In this document: positions 5,221-19,377 of the stretch, piece after piece
Layout: the number at the start of each line of letters is the position of its first letter
How positions within the stretch are numbered: the first letter of the stretch is position 1
Virus record (IMG/VR): IMGVR_UViG_3300019752_000025
Span: 1 to 20,493 of that record
Strand: one strand, 5' to 3'
Source of the DNA: a virus
DNA length: 20,493 nt
Position numbers and translations under genes: made by a program
Notes under the pieces: generated by a model
The model's database searches: none
Seen by the model: only the letters and a program-made list of their open reading frames with translations
Told to the model about the DNA's origin: nothing

Positions 5221-6163
5221 AGTACTGCTGCGCGAGGACAGCCAGCTGCTGATGATTGGTGTTGAAAACAGTTATGCCGACGACGCCACGCCGGGGCCTG
5301 TACAGGCCATCCTGGGCGAGGACGTTGATGTAACGGTGGAGCGTAAAACCGAGCAGTCAAACGAGAGTCGCGGTTTCCTCGGCGCGGGCAGTACCGCGAC
5401 CATCCACAGCCATGTAAACGTATCTCTGACAGTCAAACTGGGTGGCTCGAAAGATGGCACCGCCACCACGCCGCCGCCCTATAACGATCTCTATCTGGGC
5501 TGTTCATTAGCCGGAGTGGTTGAGGCGGACCGGGTGGCCTACAACATCGTCGGCAAAGGCAAATCGTTGTCGATCTATTACATGATTGAGGATGAGCTGC
5601 ACAAAATTGTCGGCTGTATCGGTGATGCTGAATTTGTGCTGGGCACGGATGCCATGCCCCGGCTGAAACTGACCCTGAAGGGGTTGTATCTGACGCCCGG
5701 CACCGGCACCCGCCCGGACCCGGCAGATATCGACTACACCGGCTGGGGTAATCCACTGGCCCCGAACAGCAAAAACATCCAGCGTGTGGAATATTTTGGC
5801 CACAAATTACGGATGAGCGAACTGACCCTGAAAATGGGTGTAGGCCTGGTGTATGCCAACGTGGCCTACCAGGAGTTTGTTGACGGCCCGACCCGTGAGG
5901 GCTCGGTCAGTATTACGTTTATCGCCGACGATCTGGCCACGATCAATTTTTATGAACTGGCCGACCGTAACGCCAGTTCGGAGCTGAATTATCAGCTGGG
6001 TGATATGGCCACGAATGTTGGCCATGTGTTTGGCCTGAACATCCCCAATCTGCAGATCAAGGACATCAAGAAAACGTTTAAAGACAAGATCAAGTATTTC
6101 CAGCTTGATTGCGCGATTGTGCCGCTAACGGCCAACAGCGATTTTAATTTTTTCCACGCCTGA
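5201..6163 (+). CDS. Major tail tube protein
   Basis: A 320-residue, beta-rich protein at the tube position, between the terminator and the frameshifted chaperone genes. It probably forms the stacked hexamer rings of a non-contractile tail. Visible features include TESKVLLREDSQLL at the start, VDVTVERKTEQSNESRGFLG (resembling the long inter-ring loop of tube proteins), VNVSLTVKLGGS, and LYLGCSLAG, which recurs in tube proteins. A C-terminal part ends in KIKYFQLDCAIVPL. Only one tube gene is present, with no sheath, in keeping with a siphovirus. ATG 5201 has GGAG about ten bases upstream and overlaps the preceding gene by 20 bases. Confidence 0.85.
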   Translation: MPLTESKVLLREDSQLLMIGVENSYADDATPGPVQAILGEDVDVTVERKTEQSNESRGFLGAGSTATIHSHVNVSLTVKLGGSKDGTATTPPPYNDLYLGCSLAGVVEADRVAYNIVGKGKSLSIYYMIEDELHKIVGCIGDAEFVLGTDAMPRLKLTLKGLYLTPGTGTRPDPADIDYTGWGNPLAPNSKNIQRVEYFGHKLRMSELTLKMGVGLVYANVAYQEFVDGPTREGSVSITFIADDLATINFYELADRNASSELNYQLGDMATNVGHVFGLNIPNLQIKDIKKTFKDKIKYFQLDCAIVPLTANSDFNFFHA

Positions 6164-6191
6164 TAATCGGGCCTGAAACAGGATTTATAAC

Positions 6192-6686
6192 ATGGCTTTT
6201 GTGATGGTTGCGCCCGATGTGGTGACGAAAGAAGTTGAGTTTACCCCGCCGGGTAGTGAAGAAACGGCGTCGATACTGGTCGATTTTAAGTGGCTGTCCA
6301 AGTCTGAGCGGCACGCCCAGGCTAAGAAGCTGGAAGGCCTTATGCGCCGCCAGAGCGTCAGCTACCAGCGCCATCTCAAAGAGATTGAGGCGTATAAAGT
6401 GGCGCTTGATGCGTATCTGGACAAAGAAGCGGCGGGTGAGGCGGTCGAACTGACAGAGCCTGAACCGCCGGAAATGCCTGAGCTGGGCGCGGACGATGTC
6501 GAAATTGCCTGTGATGTGGTTAAAAACATTCAAGGGCTGAAAAATGCCGACGGTGACGATCTGGAATATAGCCCAGGCCTGCTGACAGAGTTGCTGACAA
6601 TGGAGTTTGTCGCCCTGCCGTTTTTTGAGGCGCTGCGCAACTACGTGAACGGCAGCGATCTTGCGGCGGCTCTGCAAAAAAACTGA
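6192..6686 (+). CDS. Tail assembly chaperone, G-like (zero-frame product)
   Basis: A 164-residue acidic protein with a short beta start, a central helix rich in Lys/Glu/Gln (about 35-80), a Pro/Glu linker (EPEPPEMPE near 95) and a helical C-terminus. It holds the position of lambda gpG, the abundant partner that coats the tape measure and recruits tube subunits. The reading frame ends at TGA 6684-6686, directly after the heptamer A AAA AAC, so a minority of ribosomes should shift to the -1 frame and make a G-T fusion. ATG 6192 has CAGGA at a suitable distance. Confidence 0.88.
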   Translation: MAFVMVAPDVVTKEVEFTPPGSEETASILVDFKWLSKSERHAQAKKLEGLMRRQSVSYQRHLKEIEAYKVALDAYLDKEAAGEAVELTEPEPPEMPELGADDVEIACDVVKNIQGLKNADGDDLEYSPGLLTELLTMEFVALPFFEALRNYVNGSDLAAALQKN

Positions 6687-6721
6687 TCGACGCGGGCACC
6701 CGCTGGGCGAACCCGCCGCCC
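6677..6721 (+). promoter_or_regulatory. Programmed -1 frameshift site with downstream structure
   Basis: The heptamer A AAA AAC (6677-6683) is in the correct phase (CAA AAA AAC TGA) for simultaneous P- and A-site slippage, and the zero-frame stop follows at once. Eight bases later a GC-rich region begins that can fold several ways. GCGG (6692-6695) can pair with CCGC (6700-6703) across a 4-base loop. GGGCG (6705-6709) can pair with CGCCC (6717-6721) across a 7-base loop. Alternatively GCGGG (6692-6696) can pair with CCCGC (6712-6716). A classical pseudoknot combining the last two looks sterically poor because no linker remains. The spacing fits a stimulatory stem. Confidence 0.85.
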
Positions 6722-7051
6722 GATATCAATAAACACGCCGAACAGTTGGCGCAGTGGGGCGCGCCCCCTGAAGAGATCGCCGCCGCCCGCGCGGCGGCCC
6801 CCCCACCGTTTGAAGTGCTGGCCCCCAACTGGCGGGCCTTCTGCCTGTTTTGTGACTGCCGTCAGGAGTACGACACCGTCAGCAATCCGGCGGGCACGAC
6901 CTCGCTCTATCGCGGGATCAGTCGTACCGAACTGGCGGCGGTGATGAGCATGGACGGGGTGGGCAAAAAGAAGCAGCGCCGCCTGAAAAATCAGGTGCTG
7001 CTGATTGAGCGCGGCGCATTACAGGGCTGGGCGGATCGGGTAGCGACCTGA
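6683..7051 (+). CDS. T extension of the tail assembly chaperone, made by -1 frameshift (GT fusion)
   Basis: This frame is open from the slip point at 6683 and adds 122 residues, giving a fusion of about 286 residues together with 6192-6682. It has no good independent start; the first candidate is a TTG at 6746. The extension contains a Pro/Ala-rich linker, then FEVLAPNWRAFCLFCDCRQE, SLYRGISRTELAAVM and NQVLLIERGAL. This resembles DUF1799-type sequences that occupy the T position in lambda-like phages. The T part links the tape measure-chaperone complex to the tube protein. Three cysteines fall within about seven residues (CLFCDC), which is unusual for the family as I know it. The 45 bases after its stop lead to the tape measure gene. 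Confidence 0.85.
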   Translation: MIDAGTRWANPPPDINKHAEQLAQWGAPPEEIAAARAAAPPPFEVLAPNWRAFCLFCDCRQEYDTVSNPAGTTSLYRGISRTELAAVMSMDGVGKKKQRRLKNQVLLIERGALQGWADRVAT

Positions 7052-7095
7052 TCCCGTCCGCCTGATCCGTACCCCCTACCTCTGAGTTTATCGCC

Positions 7096-10000
7096 GTGGC
7101 CAAAACCTACAAATCCGGCATCGTCTTAACCGGCGATGCCAGCGGAGCCGTGCGCGCCGTAGAGCTGACAGACGACGCGCTGCGCTCACTGAATGGCCGC
7201 ACCCGGCAGACGAAAACCCGGCTATCAGCGTTGGTTGAAGAGCAGCGTCGGCTGGAAATACAGTCTCAGGAGACGCGGGCGGCGGTGTTGTCGGGCGCTC
7301 AGTCTATGCTGGCCTGGGGCGGCGGATTTGCCAGCGCGGCGGCGGCCAGTACGATCTGGCGCGCCCATATGATCCGCGATACACAAGCGGTCTCCAGAGC
7401 ACTGGGCGTGTCGATCACTGACCTGCAGGCGCTGCAGTATGCCGGGGAATCACTGGGCGTGTCGTCGGATAAAGTCGGCGATATTCTAAAGGATTTCTCG
7501 GAAAAGCTGGGTATTGCGTTCCGCGACGGCACTGGCGATGCCATGGCGGTTATTGACGAGCTGGGGATGTCGCTGGATCAGCTGCGGGGCCTGTCTGCAG
7601 ACCAGCAGTTCCTGACTGTTTTCGACCGGATCGGTGAGCTGTCTGATCGTAATCAGCAGATCAGCATGCTGGAAGATCTTGCGAGTGATGCCAGCCTGCT
7701 GATCCCCATCCTGGGCAATGTCACCGGCCTGATGCTGGAGGCTAAACAGGTCGGCTATGCGTTGTCTGAGCAGGATGCCCAGGCAATCGTTGATTACTCC
7801 GCCGCCTGGGATGGCGTGGGTGCAGCCCTGACAGGTGTCGGCAATCAGGTCACGTTACTGGCCAGCCAGCAGACAACCGGGCTGGTAAACGGCTTAGCTG
7901 CGGCGATCCGTGATAACGCGGGCGCGGTTGAATACCTCGGTACAGCTGCTACCGCAGGGGTGGCGCTGATTACGGCGCACGTCATCCCGGCGATGGTGAG
8001 TAAGGTAGCCGCATCGCGCGCGGTGCAGACTGCGCTGATCGCCGAGGCGACGGCGGAGAAAGCCGCCGCGACGGCAGCGCTGCGCCGGATCAGCTCCAGC
8101 GGCATCGCGACGGCCAGCGCGACAGGTCATGCCGCCGCTGTTGACCGCCTGAGCGCCGCCACCCTGCGCTACAACAGCACCGCCACCCTGGCAGGCCGTG
8201 CCAGCGGTATGCTGTCCGGTGGGCTGGCGATGCTGGGTGGCCCGCTGGGCGTGGGCATCCTCGCCGCGACGGCCATGGGCACCTATGCCGCCAGCATTGA
8301 TACCGCTGCGATCCGGGCGCAAGAGTCTATCGGCCCGATTGACGGCTTGGCGCTGGCGATCCGCGATGTCACCGACGCGATCAGCGGGGCCAATGATCTA
8401 AACCGGCTCAGTGATATCGCCGACGGGTTTGCCAAAAACGGCGCGGAAAAAGTCCGCGCCATGATCGCCGAAACCGAGCGCTATATAAAAACCCTGGAAG
8501 GCGTGAAAGAGCCAAAAGGGCTAAAAAGCCTGTTTGATGGCAGTTACGATACCGCTCAGGAAAACCTCAAAGGTCAGACCGAGCGGCTGGAAGCCCTGCA
8601 GCTGGCGCTGAAAAAACTGGACGAATCCAGCCGGGATGTGGTCGGGGCGAATGAAGCGCTGACGGCCAGCGGCGAAAAACTGACCGAGCAGCAACAGCTG
8701 CTGCTGAAAGAGGTGCGGGACCTCAGTACCAAATACGGCGATCAGCGCAGCAAGGTGCAGACCCTGCGCGATGAAAAAGCCCGCCTGAATCAGGCGATTA
8801 AAGAAGGCATCGGCGATCAGCAGGCGCTGAAAAAGGCCATTGTTGGCGTTACCGCTGCGATCAAGAAAGAAGAAAAGGCCACTAAAACGCTGGCGGATAA
8901 AAACGCCCTGCTTATTGAACATCTTGATGAAGAATTACGGCTGCTGGGGCTGAGTGAGAAAGAACGCGCAATTCAGATCAATCTGAAAAAGCTGGATAAA
9001 CGGGCCACAGATGATCAGCGGATCGCTGTGCGTAACAGCACCGCTGCCCTGTATGACAAAAAGGAACAGTTAAAAGCGGTCGCAGAGGCGACGAAAGAAG
9101 CGACGAAAGAAACTGATCCGTTTGTTAAAAGCTGGGAAGAGGCGACTAAACGCATTGATGCGTCGTTCGCCGATGCGTGGAAAGGGTCTTTTGATTCGTT
9201 CGAGGATTTTACCGACAACATCCTCGGCAGTTTTAAGACAATGCTGGCCGAAATGGCCCACCAGGCGACGACTAAAAAAATTGTACTGAACATTCAGCAG
9301 TCGGTCAGCAGTTCGCTGGGGATCGGTGGCAGCTCCGGCGGTGGTGCGGGTGGGTTGCCGGGCGGGCTGCCCAGCTTGTCAAATCTAGCCGACACTGCGT
9401 CCGGCGCGCTGGATTTTTTCAACCCGGCCAGTGGTGGCACGACGGCGTTTATCAACAGTCAGGCCCAGTCCCTGGGCTATGGCATGGCTGCTGATGGCAT
9501 GGGGCCGCCGACCCAGCTGCTGATTGATCCGAGCAGCGGGCTGGGCGGGGCGCTCAATGCTGCAGGCCCGGCGCTGGCGGCGTTTGGGCTGTCTAAAAAA
9601 CACGGGCCGATTGCTGGTGTGGCAGGCGGTGCAGGCTCTGCTGCGCTGGCCGGTGGTATCAGCGGCATGATCGGCGGCGGCGGGTTTTTGTCCGGTGCCA
9701 GCGGTGCGCTAGCGGGGCTGGGTCCGGCGGGCTGGCTGGCTATCGGGCTGGGTGCAGTCGCGGGGATGCTGGGGCCAAAACCCAGCGATAAAACGCAGTG
9801 GGCGGGCACGACCGGCGGCGACGGTTACGTCTACTCCGGCGGCGAAAACGGCGACAAATTGTGGCAGGAGGGCCGGGACGCGGCAACGCACATCGCCTCG
9901 ATGTTGTCGGCGTTTGATCAAAATATTGCCCGATTTGACGGTGTCGAGCTGACTGACTCGTATGAGGTCGGCGTGGGTCAGCGCGATGGTGCACAGATTC

Positions 10001-12948
10001 GTGTCAGCGATGCGGTCGAAAATGCCGATGATCTCCAGCGTTCGCCGAACGGCAGTGAGTATTTCAGCGGCGGCGACGTGATTTTCTCCGGCACTGACCT
10101 GACTGGCGGTCTGGATGCTGCTTTTGCGCGAATGGCCAAACAGGCCGGGATTCAGACCGATATTTATACCAGTCTGGCGCAGGACGGCGAGGCGCTGGGC
10201 ACTGTCTACGAGCGCCTGAATCTGCAGGTTAAGGGGGTCGATGCAGCATCTGACGCACTGGGGCTGAAATTTGACGCCAGCGCCGATGATCAGCTGCGCC
10301 TCGCCGATCAGCTGGTGCAGAGTGCGGGCGGGCTGGCGGCATTTAACGCCCAGAACGCTGCCTTTGATCAGCAGTTTTTTACTAACGCCGAGCGCCAGCA
10401 GCGGGTCTATGACGACCAGCTGACCCGCTACGACGATTTAGAGAGCGTGCTGCGGGCAAATAATCTGCAGCTTGACGGCAGCAAAACCGGTTTCCGCGAG
10501 CTGATCACCGGCATCGACGGCAGCACCCTGGCCGGTGCGGAACTGCGGGCGGAGCTGCTGCAGTATCAGAATACGGTGGCGTTTCTCGCCCCGGCCATGG
10601 TCGCAGCAAATGAGGCCGGTGCCAGCGGCGTCGAGGTGTTTTACGACCTGCAGCAGGCGTCGGAGGATCTGGGCGACACGATCAGCCGGGTTAGCTCAGA
10701 AGTCGAGACGTTTACCGAGTACAACACCCAGCTGGGCTGGGGCCTGCAGCTGACAGGCGATGAGCTGATCAGCGTCGCCGACGGCTTTATCCAGTCAGCC
10801 GGTGGCATGCAGCAGTTCAGCGCGTCGATGAATACCGGGATGTCGCTGCTGTACACGGATGCGGAACGGGCCTCGATGTCCGCGCTCGATGCCGCGCGTA
10901 ATCTGGGCGCACTGAACGCCCAGCAGGGCCTGTACGGTGATCAGTTGATCACCAATATGGACCAGGCCCGCGCGTATGCTGACGCGCAGGATCTGAGCAC
11001 CGCCGCCGGTCAGCGGGCCTACCTCGCCGCGATTGAGATGGCGCAGGCGATTGACGCCCTGGGCGGCTCACTGAGCGGGGCGACAGCGGCCGCCGGGAGC
11101 AGTGGCAGCAGTGGCGGGGGCGGGACGGTCAGCAGTTCGCCGGGGGTGATGATTGATATCGAGCAGCTGCAGGATGAGCTGGCGGCCGCGCAGGCGGCGC
11201 AGATCACTGCCGCCGCCGACATTGCGGCGGCGATTGCCGATGCCCAAGAGAAAATCGATTACTACAGCACTTTCTGGGGCGACGTGCTGAAGATGGGCGG
11301 CGTAGATGAGTGGATCGCGCACTGGCAGGGCCAGATTGATGATTTGAGTCTGGCTGACGACGGCAGCACCGCGATTGATAAACTGGTCAGCGCAATTGAT
11401 GGTGCCAAAATTCACAATGCCAACGTCACTGCTGCACAGGCAACAGCACCGGCGGTTGTATCGACTCCGGCGACGACGACCAGCAGCGGCGGCAGCAGTT
11501 ACGTTGCCGCCCTGCAGCTGCAGCCGGGCGCGCTGGAGCAGCTGATGCAGTCGGTGCTCAGTGAGTCCGGCTATCTTGACTGGCTGATCGAGCAACGGCA
11601 GCAGCCGATTGATGAGTACAACAGCCTGCACGACACCGCTATCAGTGGGTTTGCTGATCTGGCAGCGGTGGTGGATGGGCTGGAGGTGGGTTCCCAGGCG
11701 TGGATCGAGGCGGTCAACGTAACCGGCGATCTGTCGGCCTGGCTCGATGCCCAGGCCCAGCTGGCAGAGTTGCAGCAGTCGCAGGTGCTGGCTGAGTATC
11801 AGCCGGACATTGATGGTTACTGGCAGCAGTATCTCGATGCTGAGGACGATCTGCAGCGGCTCTATGACGACCGGCTGGAGCAGCTAAAAGCGGAGCAGGG
11901 GCTGGTTGCTGAGTTGGGCCGGATGCAGGACAGTCTGGCGCTGTCGGCACAGTCACCGCTGACCCCGCAGCAACGCTATGACGAGGCGCAGGCGCAGTAC
12001 CGCGAGGTGCTGGCGGCCGTGCAGGGCGGCGATACGGCTCGACTGTCGGAGCTGCAGAGTGCCGGTCAGGCGTATCTGACCGAGTCGCAGGGCATGTACG
12101 GCAGCAGTGCCGGGGCGTTGTCGGTCTACTCCGAAGTCAGCGGCGCGCTGGACGATCTGGCGCTGACGCTCGACAGCAGCAGTTATGAAGACAAATCGCT
12201 GGCGCTGGAGCAGCGCCAGCGGGATGAGCTGGAGCGCATTCGCGCGCAGCTGGAGCGTCAGTTGCGCAGTATCGTTGATCAGTCCGCGCAGCTCGGTGAC
12301 ATCGCCGCGCTGCTGGCGCTGCTGCCGGAGAAGCTCAGCGGCGCGATGGGTGACGCCCTGAGCAGCGATAGCGACAGCGGCGACAGCGGTGGTGGTGGTG
12401 CGGTGGTTGTCGCGCAATCACCGGCGTCTGCTGATGCTGGGCTGGCAGGTCACCAGCAGGTGCTGGCCAGTTTTGTGCTGGGTGGGACGGTCGAAACCGA
12501 GGCTCTGGCGGCCGCCGTTGCGGCCACCGGCGGTGTTTCAGCGGCGCAGGAGGCGGCGATTCGCAGCGCGGGTGGCTGGGTTGACGGCAGCCACCGTGAT
12601 GGCCTGCCCCGTGTGCCGTTTGACGGCTATATCGGCGAGCTGCACAGAGATGAGGCGGTACTGACTGCGCCCCAGGCCGAGGCCTGGCGCGCCGGGCAAT
12701 CAGCCCCACCGCTGCCGTTGCTGGCCCCGCTACCACCGCCGCCGGTTATTCAGTCCGCCAGTCGGGCGGATAACGCGAGCGCTGAGCGTGAATTGCGGGC
12801 GATGTCGGCGACGATTGTCGAGCTGTCTGAAACGATTGAACGGCTGATGACGGATCAGGTCGAGGCCACTAATTTGCAGACGACCCGTGTTATTAAACAG
12901 CTAAAAATCAGCCCACGCCGGGCAACGTCGAGGACTCCCCGTGATTGA
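7096..12948 (+). CDS. Tail tape measure protein (1950 residues)
   Basis: This very long protein sets tail length and is ejected during infection. The start is GTG 7096 with only a weak ribosome-binding site. Visible order: an N-terminal helical region; hydrophobic segments near residues 277-300 and 366-400; a long Lys/Glu/Gln coiled coil (about 450-690); a lambda-H-like block ending the coil, with FVKSWEEATKRIDASF and SFEDFTDNILGSFK; and a Gly/Ala-rich hydrophobic stretch (about 839-892) that could insert into a membrane. A twice-repeated alpha domain follows, with QSAGG at about 1075 and 1233. More coiled coil and low-complexity Gly/Ser linkers come next. The C-terminal motif VPFDGYIGELHRDEAVLT (about 1840-1860) recurs at the end of many tape measures. 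The last eight bases overlap the hub gene. Confidence 0.95.
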   Translation: MAKTYKSGIVLTGDASGAVRAVELTDDALRSLNGRTRQTKTRLSALVEEQRRLEIQSQETRAAVLSGAQSMLAWGGGFASAAAASTIWRAHMIRDTQAVSRALGVSITDLQALQYAGESLGVSSDKVGDILKDFSEKLGIAFRDGTGDAMAVIDELGMSLDQLRGLSADQQFLTVFDRIGELSDRNQQISMLEDLASDASLLIPILGNVTGLMLEAKQVGYALSEQDAQAIVDYSAAWDGVGAALTGVGNQVTLLASQQTTGLVNGLAAAIRDNAGAVEYLGTAATAGVALITAHVIPAMVSKVAASRAVQTALIAEATAEKAAATAALRRISSSGIATASATGHAAAVDRLSAATLRYNSTATLAGRASGMLSGGLAMLGGPLGVGILAATAMGTYAASIDTAAIRAQESIGPIDGLALAIRDVTDAISGANDLNRLSDIADGFAKNGAEKVRAMIAETERYIKTLEGVKEPKGLKSLFDGSYDTAQENLKGQTERLEALQLALKKLDESSRDVVGANEALTASGEKLTEQQQLLLKEVRDLSTKYGDQRSKVQTLRDEKARLNQAIKEGIGDQQALKKAIVGVTAAIKKEEKATKTLADKNALLIEHLDEELRLLGLSEKERAIQINLKKLDKRATDDQRIAVRNSTAALYDKKEQLKAVAEATKEATKETDPFVKSWEEATKRIDASFADAWKGSFDSFEDFTDNILGSFKTMLAEMAHQATTKKIVLNIQQSVSSSLGIGGSSGGGAGGLPGGLPSLSNLADTASGALDFFNPASGGTTAFINSQAQSLGYGMAADGMGPPTQLLIDPSSGLGGALNAAGPALAAFGLSKKHGPIAGVAGGAGSAALAGGISGMIGGGGFLSGASGALAGLGPAGWLAIGLGAVAGMLGPKPSDKTQWAGTTGGDGYVYSGGENGDKLWQEGRDAATHIASMLSAFDQNIARFDGVELTDSYEVGVGQRDGAQIRVSDAVENADDLQRSPNGSEYFSGGDVIFSGTDLTGGLDAAFARMAKQAGIQTDIYTSLAQDGEALGTVYERLNLQVKGVDAASDALGLKFDASADDQLRLADQLVQSAGGLAAFNAQNAAFDQQFFTNAERQQRVYDDQLTRYDDLESVLRANNLQLDGSKTGFRELITGIDGSTLAGAELRAELLQYQNTVAFLAPAMVAANEAGASGVEVFYDLQQASEDLGDTISRVSSEVETFTEYNTQLGWGLQLTGDELISVADGFIQSAGGMQQFSASMNTGMSLLYTDAERASMSALDAARNLGALNAQQGLYGDQLITNMDQARAYADAQDLSTAAGQRAYLAAIEMAQAIDALGGSLSGATAAAGSSGSSGGGGTVSSSPGVMIDIEQLQDELAAAQAAQITAAADIAAAIADAQEKIDYYSTFWGDVLKMGGVDEWIAHWQGQIDDLSLADDGSTAIDKLVSAIDGAKIHNANVTAAQATAPAVVSTPATTTSSGGSSYVAALQLQPGALEQLMQSVLSESGYLDWLIEQRQQPIDEYNSLHDTAISGFADLAAVVDGLEVGSQAWIEAVNVTGDLSAWLDAQAQLAELQQSQVLAEYQPDIDGYWQQYLDAEDDLQRLYDDRLEQLKAEQGLVAELGRMQDSLALSAQSPLTPQQRYDEAQAQYREVLAAVQGGDTARLSELQSAGQAYLTESQGMYGSSAGALSVYSEVSGALDDLALTLDSSSYEDKSLALEQRQRDELERIRAQLERQLRSIVDQSAQLGDIAALLALLPEKLSGAMGDALSSDSDSGDSGGGGAVVVAQSPASADAGLAGHQQVLASFVLGGTVETEALAAAVAATGGVSAAQEAAIRSAGGWVDGSHRDGLPRVPFDGYIGELHRDEAVLTAPQAEAWRAGQSAPPLPLLAPLPPPPVIQSASRADNASAERELRAMSATIVELSETIERLMTDQVEATNLQTTRVIKQLKISPRRATSRTPRD

Positions 12949-14305
12949 TGATCAGCGGTATGCCGCCTGGCTCCAGGCGGGCGACAGTCAGCGTGTCTGG
13001 CTGCTGGAGCTGGAGCACAGCGCGGGGATGGAAACCCTCGCCCACGGCATCTACACCCAGCCCGGCAGCACGGTCTGGCTCGATGCACTGGAAGAGATTG
13101 AGCTGGAGGACGGTATCAACACAGACCGCTCAATCCAGGACCTGACCATCCGCAACACCGGGCGGTTTGACAGCTGGCTGGGGCGCGAGTGGCTGGGCCA
13201 CCCGGTGCGATTGTATCTGGGTGATCGGCAGTGGCCCCGGTCAGATTTTCGGCTGACCGGATCAATGATTAACGGCGGCATCGACAGCGCGCAGGGCGGC
13301 GAGCTGCGGTTTTTGCTGCACAACCCGCTGGCGGCGCTGGATGCACCGCTGGCGGAGGTCGAAGGGGAGCCCGTGCCGGTGCTGTTCGGCACGGTGTTTA
13401 ACGTCACCGTGCCGGTGCCGGATAACAATTTGGGCTATGTAGTACACACCGGCCCGGTGACGATCACTGCGGTGCGCGATAAAGGCGGCGCGGTGGGCTA
13501 CACCCCCGGTGACCCGGTGAATGGGTTTCGGTTGCAGTCGATGCCCCGTGGCGCGATTACGTTTGATGCTGTCGCTGCGGGGGGCACCCCGGCAGCGCTG
13601 GTGCAGTTGCTCTGTGCGGGCACCGCGCTGGTGCCCAATGCCGCCAGCCTGGCCGCGTTGCCCGACTGGCCGCTGGGGATCTCGGCGCGCAGTGATGAGT
13701 CGCGCCGCTCGGTGCTCGATCAGCTGCTGGCCGGTCTGGGGGCGGCGGCGGTGATCAATGCGCTGGGTGAGCTGGAGATTCGCAGCCTGCAGCCGCCGGA
13801 CGCTGTGCCGGTGCAGGTGCTGCGCAGCTCTGCAATCATCGACAGCGCCGCTTCGCCGGGGCTGGAAATTATCGCCGTCGAGCCCCCCGCCGGGCGGGTT
13901 GAGATCCGCTACGGGCGCAACTACACGACACAGGATGCCAGCGGGCTGAACACCGGCACCGACGTGTCGCAGGGCGGAATCAGCCCCGCCGATCTGCAGC
14001 GCTACGGCACCCAGTGGCAGCACGTCAGCGACACGCTGAGCAGTAACCCGCTGGCCCGTGTGATTGAGGTCGATACCCCGTTTGCAGATAAAACCACCGC
14101 TGAGCAGTTGCGGCAGGAGACCCGCGAGCTGTGCGGCGTCACCCGCTACCGCGCCCGGCTGTCGTGTATGTCCAGCGCGGTGCAGCTGATCCGCGCCGGT
14201 GACACGGTCCAGATCACCTATCCGCGCTACGGGCTCGACCAGGGTCGCTGTGTGCGGGTGCTCAATAATCAGCTGACGACCGGCGAACTGGAGGTCTACT
14301 GGTGA
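12941..14305 (+). CDS. Tail hub/tip protein, first after the tape measure
   Basis: A 454-residue beta-rich protein starting at GTG 12941 inside the end of the tape measure gene. The opening has RVWLLELEHS, then TLAHGIYTQPG and LTIRNTGRFDSWL. This suggests a distal-tail or hub-type N-terminal domain. PVPVLFGTVFNVTVPVPDNN follows near residues 145-165, a pattern I associate with minor tail proteins that sit directly behind the tape measure. The C-terminal part (RLSCMSSAVQLIRAGDTVQ) resembles the end of hub proteins that form the tube-closing ring. No lysozyme or peptidase motif is evident. The location supports a role in closing the tube tip. The exact family is uncertain. Confidence 0.65.
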   Translation: MIDDQRYAAWLQAGDSQRVWLLELEHSAGMETLAHGIYTQPGSTVWLDALEEIELEDGINTDRSIQDLTIRNTGRFDSWLGREWLGHPVRLYLGDRQWPRSDFRLTGSMINGGIDSAQGGELRFLLHNPLAALDAPLAEVEGEPVPVLFGTVFNVTVPVPDNNLGYVVHTGPVTITAVRDKGGAVGYTPGDPVNGFRLQSMPRGAITFDAVAAGGTPAALVQLLCAGTALVPNAASLAALPDWPLGISARSDESRRSVLDQLLAGLGAAAVINALGELEIRSLQPPDAVPVQVLRSSAIIDSAASPGLEIIAVEPPAGRVEIRYGRNYTTQDASGLNTGTDVSQGGISPADLQRYGTQWQHVSDTLSSNPLARVIEVDTPFADKTTAEQLRQETRELCGVTRYRARLSCMSSAVQLIRAGDTVQITYPRYGLDQGRCVRVLNNQLTTGELEVYW

Positions 14306-15156
14306 GTGAAAAAATAGGCCGGATCAAACTGATGCGGCCGCACTGGGCGGGGGCCACGGCCACCGCCAGCAGTTCGCCGGACACGGCCCACCATCTGTTA
14401 AACCTGTGGCGGGACCATGTCTGGTACAGCGAGGCAGCCGCGCCGGATCAGCCGCTGGCCGATCAGACGATCACGCTCAGCTGGCCGGAGCCGGTCGCGA
14501 TCGACACCCTGGTGCTGGATCGGCACAACCTGTCAGGCACGGCAAAAGTGCGCTGGCAGCTGTACCGGTCCGGGACTGAGATGTACGACAGCGGGTTTCT
14601 GAGCGTCGGCCACCCGATCCCGTGGGGGGTGTTTAAAGCCGGGGTGAATTTTCTTGGCGAGTGCTGGGATGACCAGCTCAACACCCGCGTGGCGGAGCAC
14701 TATCTGCCGCTGCTGAAGTTTGCTGATCAGCTGATCGTGACGATTTCGGACCCGGACAATAAAGACGGTCAGGCGCGGATCGAGCGTCTGCCGGTCGGCC
14801 AGTCGGACAGTCTGATCAATAATTTCAGCTGGGGCGCGGTGCTGGTCTGGGTCGATAAAACCCAGCATTTTGGCACGGTTGGCGGCGGGCTGGATATCCA
14901 GCGCGGCGAAGTTTATCGCGAGCTGTCAGTCAGTTTTGACTGGCTGGAAGGCGCGGACCGGGCGTGGCTGCACGCCCAGCTGGCGCGCTCAAAAGCTGAC
15001 GTCTGGTTTGTGTCGGCGTACCCGACAGCGCGCAGCGGCGGCATGGAGTCGCTGGCGCATATGTTCACCGGGGTCCGTACCACTGATGTTAAAACGGCGC
15101 GCAGCAATTCCTTGTTCGGCAAGACTGCGGCCCCAATTATTTTCAGAGAGGCGTAG
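14302..15156 (+). CDS. Tail tip protein with a discoidin-like N-terminal region
   Basis: A 284-residue protein that starts at GTG 14302, overlapping the hub stop by four bases (GTGA). Residues 30-110 resemble a galactose-binding-like beta sandwich: LADQTITLSWPEPVAIDTLV, then DRHNLSGTAKVRWQLYRSG and MYDSGFL. Such domains often bind sugars or mediate protein contacts. The C-terminal half has GGGLDIQRGEVYRELSVSFD and a helix with RAWLHAQLARSKADVWF, similar to minor tail proteins of the distal-tail kind. It probably packs against the hub ring. The fold reading is by pattern only and I cannot assign a named family. Confidence 0.6.
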   Translation: MSEKIGRIKLMRPHWAGATATASSSPDTAHHLLNLWRDHVWYSEAAAPDQPLADQTITLSWPEPVAIDTLVLDRHNLSGTAKVRWQLYRSGTEMYDSGFLSVGHPIPWGVFKAGVNFLGECWDDQLNTRVAEHYLPLLKFADQLIVTISDPDNKDGQARIERLPVGQSDSLINNFSWGAVLVWVDKTQHFGTVGGGLDIQRGEVYRELSVSFDWLEGADRAWLHAQLARSKADVWFVSAYPTARSGGMESLAHMFTGVRTTDVKTARSNSLFGKTAAPIIFREA

Positions 15157-15701: not shown

Positions 15702-15704
15702 GTG

Positions 15705-16487
15705 ATGGCGTTTGAGACAGTGATTCTGCAGGGTGACGGTACAGCGCAGCTGGCGGTCACAAATGATGCGACAACAGAGGCGGTGGTCAACAGTCTGCTG
15801 GCGACCAACAGCACCGCCGGTGAGCGGGTATACAGCCTGCTGCTGGATGGTCAGGTGATGCTGCAGCTGCCGGTCGCGGCGAATAGCAGCGCGCCGCTGG
15901 CGGTCAAACCGAATGTCCCCGCCGGGGCGACATTGACCGTGCAGGCTCCGGCTGGACTGGCGGTGACGCTGTGGGTCTATCGGCAGTCGATTGATCTGGC
16001 GGCGGGTCTGACGGCGATGCAGTCCGCCGTGGCGGCGGCCCGCGAGGCTGCCGCTCGGGCCGCCACAGCGCTCCCGGTTGGGGTGCTGGATGATGATCAG
16101 GTGGCAGCGGATCGCGCGTGGAGCAGTCGGCAGATTGATGTGGTAAAGGCCGACCGCACCCCGGCGCTGATCGCGTTGGGCGCGCACGCGGGCGGGGTGG
16201 TGATCGACGTATCGGCGGGGCCGGTGCAGCAGTTGACGATTGCCGGTGATACACAGCTGACGCTGACTGGCTGGCCCGCCGCAGGGGTATACGCTGAGGT
16301 CGAGATCGAGCTGATCGATGGCGGTGCGCATGTGCTGACGCTGCCACCGGTGAATTGGTTAATCGGCGACGGGTCGCGGACGGGCAGTTTTGCGGATACA
16401 AAAATCGCACTGCAGGAGTCGGGCGGTAACGTTTTGGTGCTGTGGAGCAGTGACGGCGGTGTGACAGTGTGCGGGGTGGCGGGATGA
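15705..16487 (+). CDS. Tail fibre-like or tip attachment protein
   Basis: A 260-residue protein starting at ATG 15705, with GGGGTG upstream; a GTG at 15702 would add one residue. Residues 1-95 are beta-rich and could form a sandwich domain. A short Ala/Arg coiled coil (AMQSAVAAAREAAARAAT) follows, then DDQVAADRAWSSRQIDVVKA, a linker pattern frequent in phage fibre proteins, and a beta-rich C-terminus with LTLTGWPAAGVYAEVEIELI and VLWSSDGGVTVCG resembling trimeric fibre tips. It probably joins the tip to the lectin-like protein encoded next, whose start overlaps its stop by four bases (ATGA). Confidence 0.65.
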   Translation: MAFETVILQGDGTAQLAVTNDATTEAVVNSLLATNSTAGERVYSLLLDGQVMLQLPVAANSSAPLAVKPNVPAGATLTVQAPAGLAVTLWVYRQSIDLAAGLTAMQSAVAAAREAAARAATALPVGVLDDDQVAADRAWSSRQIDVVKADRTPALIALGAHAGGVVIDVSAGPVQQLTIAGDTQLTLTGWPAAGVYAEVEIELIDGGAHVLTLPPVNWLIGDGSRTGSFADTKIALQESGGNVLVLWSSDGGVTVCGVAG

Positions 16488-18568
16488 GCAGTAAAAAACT
16501 GATGCTGTCGCAGCGGGTGCAGTCGCAGGCAAATGCGGGAATAATTAGGGATGCTGTGGATTTTGATGGGGTGGAGGATCATCTCAGTCGTGGCGGGCTG
16601 TTGGGTACCGATAGTAAGGCGTTTACACTCAGTTTGTGGCTGTATCCGGTTACGCTTGAAACCGGAGAGCAGTACATAAATTTTGGTTCTGATCGTTTTG
16701 TGTTATATAAGTCAGGTACTGATAAATATCGACTATTGGCCCGGAATCCAGACCACACAAGTGTTGTGGTTTTTAGTGTATCTGCGCTGTTAGTAAAGGA
16801 TACATGGACGCATATAGTAATGTCAGTAGATACGACTGACCTTGCGAAGCGGAATGTATATGTGAATGATGTTCCAGTGTCTGTTTTGTGGGATACGTAC
16901 ATTAATGATGTAATAAATTTCTCTAATACGCCGTATTACGTTGGTTCTAATAGTACTACTTCTACTTTATTTAAAGGTAGAATGTCGCACGTATTTTTAG
17001 ATACATCGTATTATGATTTGTCGGTAGATGCTAATCGGCGACTGTTTACTGAATACGGTCCTAATGGTCTGATGCCTGCTAAAAGCCAAGTCTCATTGAA
17101 TCCGATTCTCTATGTTTGTGTCGATTCTGAAAACCCAGGGATTAATTTCGGTTATGGGGGTGACTTCGTTCAGCATGGGGTGATGGCGCAGAGCCAGGTC
17201 GGGCCGAGTGATTATAACGCTCCCGCCACTCAGTTCGCTCCGGATGACGGGTATTTGTATCGTTCAGACTATATTCCTGGCCTCGACGGGTTTGTAATTA
17301 CATTTTCAATTTTATTTATTTTGAATAAAAGGGTAGGGAGGCAGTATCTTTTTGTAAGCGAAACATCGGGTGGTGCGAGAAATCGTGGGGTTTGTGTATA
17401 CACAGATGGGGTAGATATTCACATATCTGCAGCATCGAGCGTGGGCGGAACTATAGGGTTGTGGACACTGCCTGTTCCTGAGCACCGCTGGCAGCAGGTC
17501 GATTTCAGCTTGGATACGAGGGATTTCACAACGCTACGCTGCGCGGTCAACGGCGCTTTAGTGCCTGTCGTTATCAAGTATCAGCTGGGGTATGCGCAGA
17601 GTATCGGGTATGGAATTCGACTAGGAGTCGGCTCGGATTCTGTCGGTGGAAACAGGCTGGACGGTGCGCTGGCACGGGTCTGGCTAGACAGTAAGTATGT
17701 CGATCTGGCTGACAATCCGTTTTGGGAAAATGGTCGAACTGTATATCTGGGAGATAATGGTGAAATACCTGCATCAACCCTGCCGGTCGTGTATATGCCG
17801 ATGGTGGCTAACAGGCCGGGTGAAAACCGGGGGGCGGGTGCTGACTTCGATGAAAATGTTACATTCAAAGGGGCGCGTGGGCCGAGCGAGTACTGGGCAC
17901 GTAGTGTGACTGCCTCAGACCATTCAGCCGGGTTACATGCTACCGCATCCGGGTTGCAGGGGTTGTCTACGGCTGCGCTGTTTATTGCATTTGATCTGTC
18001 CCGCTACGCGGGTTCTGACATATCAACAATATTCAGGGCTGGCAGCAATGATTGCCAGCTCAGAATATATAATTCCGCGAAACAGGTTATATTCGATTTT
18101 TGTGGCAGTAATTCCAGTGTAGATAACTGGAGTTTTAAAACTGCGGGTAGTTTAAACACTACCGGCTGGAATTTTTTGTTTCTCGATTTTGATAACTCGG
18201 CCCCAGCAAATACCCGCTGTATTCTAAATGGTACGTCGGGGGTGTCATTTACAGATACACGCGGCCACCCTGTTTTTTCGTCCAGCCAGGCGCTGGATCT
18301 ATTGACGCTGATTAGCGGCGTTGATATTGGATGCTGCTATATAGCGGATTCAGTCATCGGGTTTGATGATGAGGCAGTCCGGCTGTTGTTTGTCGATGCC
18401 TTTGGTTATCCCGTGCCGTTGCAGCCGTCAATTGATGCGGGTCTGATCCCGCCTGGGGTGGTGGATTTGCGATTCGATGACCTGACCGCGCTCGGTTTTA
18501 ACGCGGGTACAGGTGGGGATTTTGTTATTAACGGCACGGTAACGCCGGGCGCAGACGTAGGAGCGTAA
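16484..18568 (+). CDS. Receptor-binding protein with three tandem lectin-like (LamG/ConA-type) units
   Basis: A 694-residue protein, started at ATG 16484 because that codon overlaps the preceding stop; ATG 16469 lies inside the upstream gene and is less likely. Three units of roughly 227 residues each contain a jelly-roll-like pattern (AFTLSLWLYP, then W-T/Q, then NG or ND with V/LV, then G-M/LAR-VWLD). Each ends in a shared tail: GINFGYGGDF (about 217), GENRGAGADF (about 443) and GFNAGTGGDF (about 673). Such domains bind glycans in other phage adhesins, so a host-surface polysaccharide is the likely ligand. DNA here is much AT-richer than in the neighbours (16681-16740 has 20 G/C of 60; 15961-16020 has 39 of 60), indicating recent acquisition. 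Confidence 0.7.
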   Translation: MSSKKLMLSQRVQSQANAGIIRDAVDFDGVEDHLSRGGLLGTDSKAFTLSLWLYPVTLETGEQYINFGSDRFVLYKSGTDKYRLLARNPDHTSVVVFSVSALLVKDTWTHIVMSVDTTDLAKRNVYVNDVPVSVLWDTYINDVINFSNTPYYVGSNSTTSTLFKGRMSHVFLDTSYYDLSVDANRRLFTEYGPNGLMPAKSQVSLNPILYVCVDSENPGINFGYGGDFVQHGVMAQSQVGPSDYNAPATQFAPDDGYLYRSDYIPGLDGFVITFSILFILNKRVGRQYLFVSETSGGARNRGVCVYTDGVDIHISAASSVGGTIGLWTLPVPEHRWQQVDFSLDTRDFTTLRCAVNGALVPVVIKYQLGYAQSIGYGIRLGVGSDSVGGNRLDGALARVWLDSKYVDLADNPFWENGRTVYLGDNGEIPASTLPVVYMPMVANRPGENRGAGADFDENVTFKGARGPSEYWARSVTASDHSAGLHATASGLQGLSTAALFIAFDLSRYAGSDISTIFRAGSNDCQLRIYNSAKQVIFDFCGSNSSVDNWSFKTAGSLNTTGWNFLFLDFDNSAPANTRCILNGTSGVSFTDTRGHPVFSSSQALDLLTLISGVDIGCCYIADSVIGFDDEAVRLLFVDAFGYPVPLQPSIDAGLIPPGVVDLRFDDLTALGFNAGTGGDFVINGTVTPGADVGA

Positions 18569-18572
18569 TTAA

Positions 18573-19103
18573 ATGGAACAGTATATAAATGTTGAAACAG
18601 GCCAGTACCCGATCTACCGCCGCCGGATTGAATTAAATCACCCGGATATTATTTTTCCGAAAGCAAAGCCGATTAATCACCCGGACTATGCGCTGGTTAA
18701 CCCGGTCAATAAACCCGCAGGCGATGTAGTCACGGAGGGCGCACCAGAGCGGGTTGACGGTGAGTATCAGCAGACGTGGCAGGTCCGGCCGTTTACTGCA
18801 GAGGAAAGCGCCGCGCAGGTAGCGGCGCTGGTGCAGTCGCGCCTGAGCCTGGCTAAAACCGAATGTTCCCGCCGCATTGTTGCGGTCATTGATCTGGCCG
18901 CCCAGGCGAATCTGACCGCCGCCGCCGCTGCGCAGGTCTTCAGTCCTGAGCAGGTGGCGGTCTATCAGCAGGGGGTGCAGTGGATCGCCCAGACCCGCGC
19001 CGCCCAGCGGCCGCTGGCTGAGGATCTGACGGCAGAGATCAGCGATGATCAGCACTGGCCAGCGCCGCCGCCCGCCGTGGTGGCGCTGGCTGCACAATTC
19101 TGA
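18573..19103 (+). CDS. Tail fibre assembly chaperone-like protein
   Basis: A 176-residue protein directly after the receptor-binding gene, four bases from its stop. The N-terminal part has NHPDIIFPKAKPINHPDYAL, and GDVVTEGAPERVDGEYQQTW is typical of short proteins encoded next to fibres. The C-terminal half is helical: SRLSLAKTECSRRIVAVIDL, then AQANLTAAAAAQV and VQWIAQTRAAQR, recalling DUF4376/fibre-assembly-type tails. It may help trimerise or protect the fibre, or act as a fibre-linked structural protein. Its base composition returns to that of the main operon. The stop codon lies at the edge of a terminator hairpin. Confidence 0.65.
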   Translation: MEQYINVETGQYPIYRRRIELNHPDIIFPKAKPINHPDYALVNPVNKPAGDVVTEGAPERVDGEYQQTWQVRPFTAEESAAQVAALVQSRLSLAKTECSRRIVAVIDLAAQANLTAAAAAQVFSPEQVAVYQQGVQWIAQTRAAQRPLAEDLTAEISDDQHWPAPPPAVVALAAQF

Positions 19104-19143: not shown

Positions 19144-19377
19144 ATGAAAAAATTACTGATGGCGCTGGCGCTGGCGTCCGTGCTGCCCGGCTGTGCGTCA
19201 CAGATGACCCCGGCGCAGCAGGCATCCGTCCTGCAGGCGCAGGCTGAGCGGCCCACACTGGCGGTTACCTGTCCGGCTGGCAGCGGCTCAGTAGTCGCCC
19301 CGCCACAAACAAAGAAGCCCGGCCATTGGCCGGGCGTCTTTCTGTGTTTTTCTGTGTTTTTCTGTGTTTTTCCCTGA
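19144..19377 (+). CDS. Small lipoprotein, probably truncated at its 3' end
   Basis: A 77-residue frame with a lipoprotein signal peptide: a KK start, a hydrophobic core, and lipobox LPGC with Cys17. The following A and S suggest outer-membrane sorting. The ribosome-binding site CCAGGA is well spaced. After the lipobox the text QMTPAQQASVLQAQAERPTL leads to VTCPAG. In related small phage lipoproteins as I recall them, this point would be followed by a C-rich, DPRDR-type region. Here the frame instead passes into a hairpin (19317-19335) and a 10-bp triplicate, encoding an odd end (FLCFSVFFCVFP). It may be a spanin-like or surface protein that lost its 3' part. Truncation is inferred. Confidence 0.55.
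   Translation: MKKLLMALALASVLPGCASQMTPAQQASVLQAQAERPTLAVTCPAGSGSVVAPPQTKKPGHWPGVFLCFSVFFCVFP
19311..19341. terminator. Bidirectional terminator-like hairpin
   Basis: GCCCGGCC (19317-19324) pairs with GGCCGGGC (19328-19335). The stem is extended by AAAGA (19311-19315) with TCTTT (19337-19341) across one A-G mismatch, so T-rich sequence follows the stem on both strands. It lies between the + strand tail genes and the - strand genes on the right and could stop transcription from either side. It sits inside the last part of the lipoprotein frame. Confidence 0.7.
19341..19370 (+). repeat. Three exact copies of TCTGTGTTTT
   Basis: The 10-base unit repeats head to tail three times without a mismatch, directly downstream of the terminator hairpin. 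It supplies much of the T-rich tract after the hairpin and the last residues of the lipoprotein frame. Replication slippage is the simplest origin. Confidence 0.95.

Follow-up and report, generated by a model that had tools for sequence, protein, structure and literature searches.

The locus studied here raises the question of what a three-part protein encoded among phage tail genes does, and how such a protein varies among related phages. The window, by which we mean the whole stretch of DNA analysed, is an IMG/VR record of 20,493 bases that is classed as linear and is possibly a fragment. Its gene order runs from a head maturation protease through the major capsid protein, a head-tail adaptor and a 1950-residue tape measure protein to tail tip genes, and we presume the phage to be siphovirus-like. 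Two of the tail tip genes (12941 to 14305 and 14302 to 15156) matched PHROG families of unknown function alone (phrog_8917 and phrog_8610). Judged by its open reading frame, a profile match and its predicted fold, the protein in question (16484 to 18568; 694 residues) is a three-unit LamG protein and a probable fibre-tip adhesin; its gene, the two flanking genes and all parts of it located below are on the plus strand. Translation from the ATG at 16484 gives the 694 residues, and this start lies in a 4-bp overlap (ATGA) with the upstream gene's stop, while the program-made list of open reading frames starts the frame at a GTG at 16469 instead. G+C content was 51 to 54% over 16001 to 19000, the adhesin region, versus 56 to 67% elsewhere in the window, and a foreign origin of this region would fit its low G+C.

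Motifs and predicted LamG units

The initial annotation had described three tandem lectin-like units, each ending in a matching motif. The three motifs, GINFGYGGDF (residues 219 to 228; 17138 to 17167), GENRGAGADF (residues 446 to 455; 17819 to 17848) and GFNAGTGGDF (residues 671 to 680; 18494 to 18523), all follow the pattern GxNxGxGxDF. The match between them stood, but the positions first given (217, 443 and 673, with a period of 226 to 230 residues) were slightly off, the motifs beginning at residues 219, 446 and 671 with spacings of 227 and 225 residues. The pattern occurs three times in the adhesin; 200,000 shuffles of the protein yielded 36 matches in total, and none of the shuffles held two. 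N221, G223, G225 and G226 were invariant across 36 aligned three-unit proteins, and the motif is a feature of the family.

Pfam Laminin_G_3 (PF13385) matched three stretches of the whole adhesin (E 2.9e-18; 66.9 bits, the cut-off being 27.6). When the units were scanned singly, unit 1 passed (48.9 bits) and units 2 and 3 gave no match to this family. An AlphaFold2 model built from the 36 aligned three-unit proteins had a pLDDT of 83, a pTM of 0.81, a value that speaks only for confident placing of the units, and strands throughout the three units. Unit 1 (residues 1 to 234; 16484 to 17185), of which residues 1 to 19 were disordered in the model, matched the carbohydrate-binding protein 4dqa over modelled residues 21 to 243 (Z 20.0, rmsd 2.5, 194 residues aligned), and the same range also matched pentraxins (Z about 19). 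For unit 2 (residues 235 to 461; 17186 to 17866), modelled residues 244 to 460 matched neurexin LNS2 (2h0b; Z 15.6, rmsd 2.8, 169 aligned). Unit 3 (residues 462 to 694; 17867 to 18565) was the poorest region of the whole-protein model; folded singly from 55 sequences, it reached a pLDDT of 86 and a pTM of 0.87, and over its residues 10 to 233 it matched the LamG domain of PAPP-A (7y5n; Z 18.7, rmsd 2.7, 196 aligned) and serum amyloid P (Z 16.9, rmsd 2.8, 182 aligned). All three units have both profile and fold matches, and for each a beta-sandwich of the LamG/concanavalin A-like superfamily is predicted. The aligned ranges take in the motif, which is therefore part of the same domain. The Laminin_G_3 stretches and the predicted structures bear out the earlier description of three lectin-like units in tandem; the common fold and the proposed boundaries hold in the models, and sequence and fold agree in placing each motif close to the C terminus of its unit. 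We found no support for a packing of each unit end onto the next unit: unit 3 alone keeps an ordered motif end (block pLDDT 93 to 96, last block 80).

A sequence search of the PDB with the adhesin alone gave no match. Searches with alignments gave an S-layer LamG domain at E 3.3e-5, followed by neurexins at E 0.02 to 0.11, and the unit 3 alignment reached neurexins at E 0.45 and worse. The LamG domains of laminin, neurexin and pentraxin have the same beta-sandwich as each unit, and laminin and neurexin carry several per chain; however, their identity to the adhesin is 8 to 16%, and on multi-domain superposition the relative placing differs (rmsd about 18 to 20 Angstrom).

Relatives, unit order and gene neighbours

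Whole-protein scans for close relatives in viral and genome contigs found none, and relatives surfaced solely once an alignment served as the query; a neighbour gene used as bait yielded one weak locus. Alignment queries of IMG/VR found 78 loci with unit 1, 68 with unit 2 and 59 with unit 3, in scans that overlap in contigs. Ordered U1-U2-U3 proteins accounted for 50 of the 78, 55 of the 68 and 51 of the 59 loci, counts that take in cut proteins, proteins with extra parts and a few weak ones. As the scans were queried with conserved frame peptides, the loci are a non-random sample. Once identical and contained sequences had been taken out, 62 complete U1-U2-U3 proteins were left, window copy included, with a median length of 711 residues. 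Two phage records contain partial relatives of the adhesin, and tblastn with three family members against 50,697 phage records returned this pair for every query; neither of the two has three LamG cores. The adhesin genes of loci L005 and L030 are identical to genes carried by contigs from two cultured bacteria, Giesbergeria anulus (ATCC 35958) and Thalassobaculum litoreum (DSM 18839). In the sequences searched, the three-LamG form was thus found in uncultivated phages and bacterial contigs only.

The order of the units is fixed. All 108 units from 36 proteins scored best against the profile of their own position, although each profile excluded sequences more than 60% identical to the query. 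This result contradicts the suggestion that whole units are interchangeable modules. Three is the usual number of units among the relatives, and variants with fewer and with more parts occur. Unit 1 was found without units 2 and 3 in Roseobacter phage CRP-603 and in L064, in both cases before DUF7483; units 2 and 3 seldom occur without unit 1. Unit 1 may be the part closest to the fibre, which would fit its occurrence without the other two.

The upstream gene (15702 to 16487; 261 residues) is tail-fibre-like, its C-terminal 90 residues sharing a profile with the gene that precedes the adhesin in relatives. A leave-one-out profile of these last 90 residues matched in 49 of the 53 testable loci, window included, and in the family searches the window's own upstream protein had a weak match. 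Both upstream relatives that were scanned matched tail fibre families. The downstream gene (18573 to 19103; 176 residues) encodes a probable tail fibre assembly protein; it matched phrog_4998 (E 3.2e-20), a family of unknown function, and a leave-one-out profile of the downstream protein matched in 48 of 51 loci, window included. Among five downstream relatives scanned, three matched PF16778 and two DUF4376, and tail fibre assembly PHROGs were matched as well. Going by gene order and profiles, the fibre, adhesin and assembly genes form one cassette. Beyond it lies a small open reading frame (19144 to 19377) with a lipoprotein-like beginning (MKKLLMALALASVLPGCAS) and weak matches alone, Cor superinfection exclusion and Rz-like spanin families among them.

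The placement between tail fibre and fibre assembly genes is like that of a receptor-binding protein, the role proposed initially. LamG folds bind ligands of many kinds, and the protein could instead be a virion surface protein other than a receptor-binding protein, which binds environmental or host-secreted glycans or serves as a structural fibre cap; the N-terminal fibre-like gene upstream would be compatible with such a role. However, both the placement between fibre and assembly genes and the turnover of the cores described below suit host recognition better, and we regard the alternative as unlikely. From the fold and this turnover, we infer that the cores bind ligands on the host cell surface.

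Constant frame and variable cores

Across 55 proteins, three cores, each of about 130 residues, interrupt a conserved frame consisting of the N-terminal strand, the unit ends, the motifs and the linkers. We drew the boundaries by eye from a single pair, in L046 coordinates, and applied them to all 55. This set was derived from 63 aligned sequences by leaving out L001 (the window itself) and L032 (a near copy of L033) as duplicates, and L002, L051, L059, L062, L079 and L082 as incomplete or weak. Carried over from the relatives to the window, the same boundaries place core 1, the variable slot of unit 1, at residues 36 to 164 (16589 to 16975), core 2 at residues 272 to 398 (17297 to 17677) and core 3 at residues 485 to 616 (17936 to 18331). 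Mean pairwise identity was 43, 58, 53 and 50% in the four frame segments and 33, 23 and 20% in the three cores, and core identity stayed near these values at any frame identity.

Over the 1485 pairs, the frame segments covaried (Spearman 0.37 to 0.63), whereas cores against frame gave -0.08 to 0.14 and core against core 0.00 to 0.03. The core-core correlation is weak evidence, because most cores are at the identity floor. In a version free of boundaries, conserved blocks gave 0.29 and blocks inside one core 0.05 to 0.09; these within-core blocks hardly covary for the same reason. The flanking genes correlated weakly with the frame (Spearman 0.27 and 0.28), their median identities rising from 35 to 70% and from 28 to 64% between pairs with frame identity below 50% and pairs with at least 70%.

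Single pairs were more telling, and the pairwise cases are, at sequence level, strong evidence for core exchange. In ten pairs, identity of 85 to 100% dropped to about 15 to 35% within one or more units and then recovered. Among the 139 pairs with frame identity of at least 68%, 128 share no core at 55% identity, 11 share one and none shares two. L041 and L101 are 90% identical in the frame, where 117 of 142 fourfold sites are equal (82%), and 28, 23 and 31% identical in the cores; their aligned DNA blocks end near the core edges. Other pairs have a single core in common: core 1 in L027/L008 (90%) and L035/L025 (93%), core 2 in L146/L160 (91%), and core 3 in L031/L076, L046/L166 and L019/L020 (95 to 97%). 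The frames of L027 and L008 are 54% identical, and fourfold agreement is 48 of 59 sites in core 1 versus 11 of 33, 10 of 25 and 7 of 15 in frame segments 2 to 4, so that core 1 is younger than the frame. In L035/L025, 67 of 70 fourfold sites agree in core 1, and the frame is 70% identical. Taken at the level of the relatives' sequences, these comparisons show exchange of cores one slot at a time.

Very fast divergence of the cores in place, under host selection and with the frame held by structural constraint, would require no exchange. It would account for cores that are everywhere far less conserved than the frame, and the identity floor at which most pairs have their cores would be given equally by fast divergence. 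However, it does not sit well with dissimilar cores in L041/L101 at a time when the frame's fourfold sites are still 82% equal, nor with a core 1 younger than the frame in L027/L008 and L035/L025, and we consider it a distinctly improbable account. Diversification of the cores by a diversity-generating retroelement is hardly credible: according to the accessible text of PMC10743442, lectin-fold portions of receptor-binding proteins in phages are targets of such elements, but no reverse transcriptase (PF00078) match was found within the 20,493 bases, a fragment, and the differences between cores extend along about 130 residues, include insertions and deletions, and leave no DNA similarity.

The exchanged cores are specific to their slots. 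Core sequence alone assigned 163 of 165 cores to the correct slot, and each slot held 49 to 53 distinct cores among the 55 proteins, depending on the threshold. BLAST at E 1e-6 gave 1505 cross-slot and 1920 same-slot core hits, and matches across slots occur as one fold should produce them. The best-scoring cross-slot pair was 42% identical, and the top identity among the 15 listed was 46%, so low that no recent change of slot was detected. The modularity claimed initially survives in altered form: in relatives, core cassettes inside the units are exchangeable within a constant frame, but whole units are not modules. The frame of the window adhesin is at most 44% identical to that of any relative, too distant for core exchange to be followed in its own lineage; by extension from the relatives, this protein too has presumably changed by core exchange.

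Several relatives depart from the usual layout. In Thiohalocapsa phage LS06-2018-MD03 (TPMD03), 14 and 23 residues replace cores 2 and 3, which elsewhere span about 105 to 115 profile positions, and the flanking profile positions are matched. L051 and L079 have 33 and 27 residues where core 3 would be. Short N-terminal frame pieces score merely 1.5 to 10.5 bits in this comparison. A long insert near the end of unit 1 is present in L038, L057 and L070. That of L070 (residues about 234 to 369) matched a seven-bladed beta-propeller just over the cut-off, that of L057 a related family below its cut-off, and that of L038 no family. An open reading frame for an HNH endonuclease (phrog_374) interrupts the adhesin gene at a similar site, in the frame part of unit 1, in L059 (4004 to 6804; E 1.9e-64) and L079 (3968 to 7301; E 7.3e-61). 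No group I intron was found at these split genes with Rfam at E up to 1, the sole match at that level being an unrelated, sub-threshold one in L084. From the HNH genes in these two loci, endonuclease-driven core exchange is possible. The first 270 or so residues of the L079 open reading frame at 5298 to 7301 are a repetitive-looking extra stretch that is without a family match. In L007 (2853 to 4965) and L084 (4917 to 6515) the three-unit gene is in two open reading frames with the break inside core 2, through either sequencing error or decay.

Known adhesins and a proposed mechanism

The nearest functional parallel is T2-type gp38 (T2, S16 and PP01), a fibre-tip protein in which, in the available text of PMC12892980, glycine-rich motifs flank hypervariable regions. 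Both proteins are separate gene products tied to a tail fibre, and the relatives of the adhesin have an analogous pattern of conserved parts around variable ones, although with another motif and with variable parts of another size. That text describes gp38 as having a beta-helix and a poly-glycine II sandwich with variable loops, whereas three LamG beta-sandwiches are predicted for the adhesin; in the adhesin family whole cores are replaced in fixed slots. Owing to its fold, the adhesin is not classed as a gp38, and the best reading, by analogy, is that it would work like T2-type gp38 on another fold. CRP-603 gp52 (LamG and DUF7483) has a related unit 1 with the motif and likewise follows a fibre gene, but has DUF7483 domains where the adhesin has units 2 and 3. 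TPMD03 gene 54 shares unit 1, all frame segments, the three motif places and the same neighbours, and differs in its cores 2 and 3, cut to 14 and 23 residues. In the host recognition modules of Alteromonas phages A5 and V22, a fibre and an assembly gene are common to distant phages and the tips are lectin-like; whole fibre and chaperone genes move there, and the accessible portion of the source describes no LamG units or core cassettes (PMC10579305). PMC9127768 and PMC7029224, in what is available of them, mention phage LamG or concanavalin A domains as domains for adhesion. A literature search covering titles and the beginnings of abstracts, with most subscription papers outside it, found no three-LamG phage adhesin and no LamG core exchange.

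Taken together, we think it probable that the protein is a fibre-tip adhesin of three LamG units with a constant frame, whose cores are exchanged slot by slot in such phages. By gene order and fold, the adhesin would sit at the end of the tail fibre of a long-tailed phage, its three LamG beta-sandwich units forming one chain. The constant frame, made up of the strands that open and close each unit together with the GxNxGTGGDF motif and RGP linkers, would set the order and geometry of the units and may dock the adhesin onto the fibre encoded by the upstream gene, aided by the downstream assembly protein. The middle 130 or so residues of each unit would be the exchangeable cores and the putative receptor-binding surface, facing the host. 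Recombination in the conserved frame DNA on both sides, to judge from the comparison of relatives, swaps one core at a time, and by such single-core replacement host recognition can change while the fibre is not rebuilt. A more elaborate version, for and against which we see the case as evenly balanced, is a combinatorial adhesin with three position-specific sockets, each with its own pool of LamG cores, on which receptor sets are assembled slot by slot, possibly by endonuclease-driven exchange, and with an insertion point for extra domains near the end of unit 1.

Fibre tips in which constant flanks enclose hypervariable parts were known already from T2-type gp38. Here the same principle recurs on a different fold: entire lectin cores serve as cassettes in three fixed slots per chain, and the frame persists where sockets are nearly empty. 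If true, this would provide a rule for reading the recognition parts of uncultivated phages from sequence, the frame first and then the three cores, and the presence of several independent receptor specificities on one adhesin would become a testable question. Core replacement within a kept framework looks like a means of changing what the phage sticks to.
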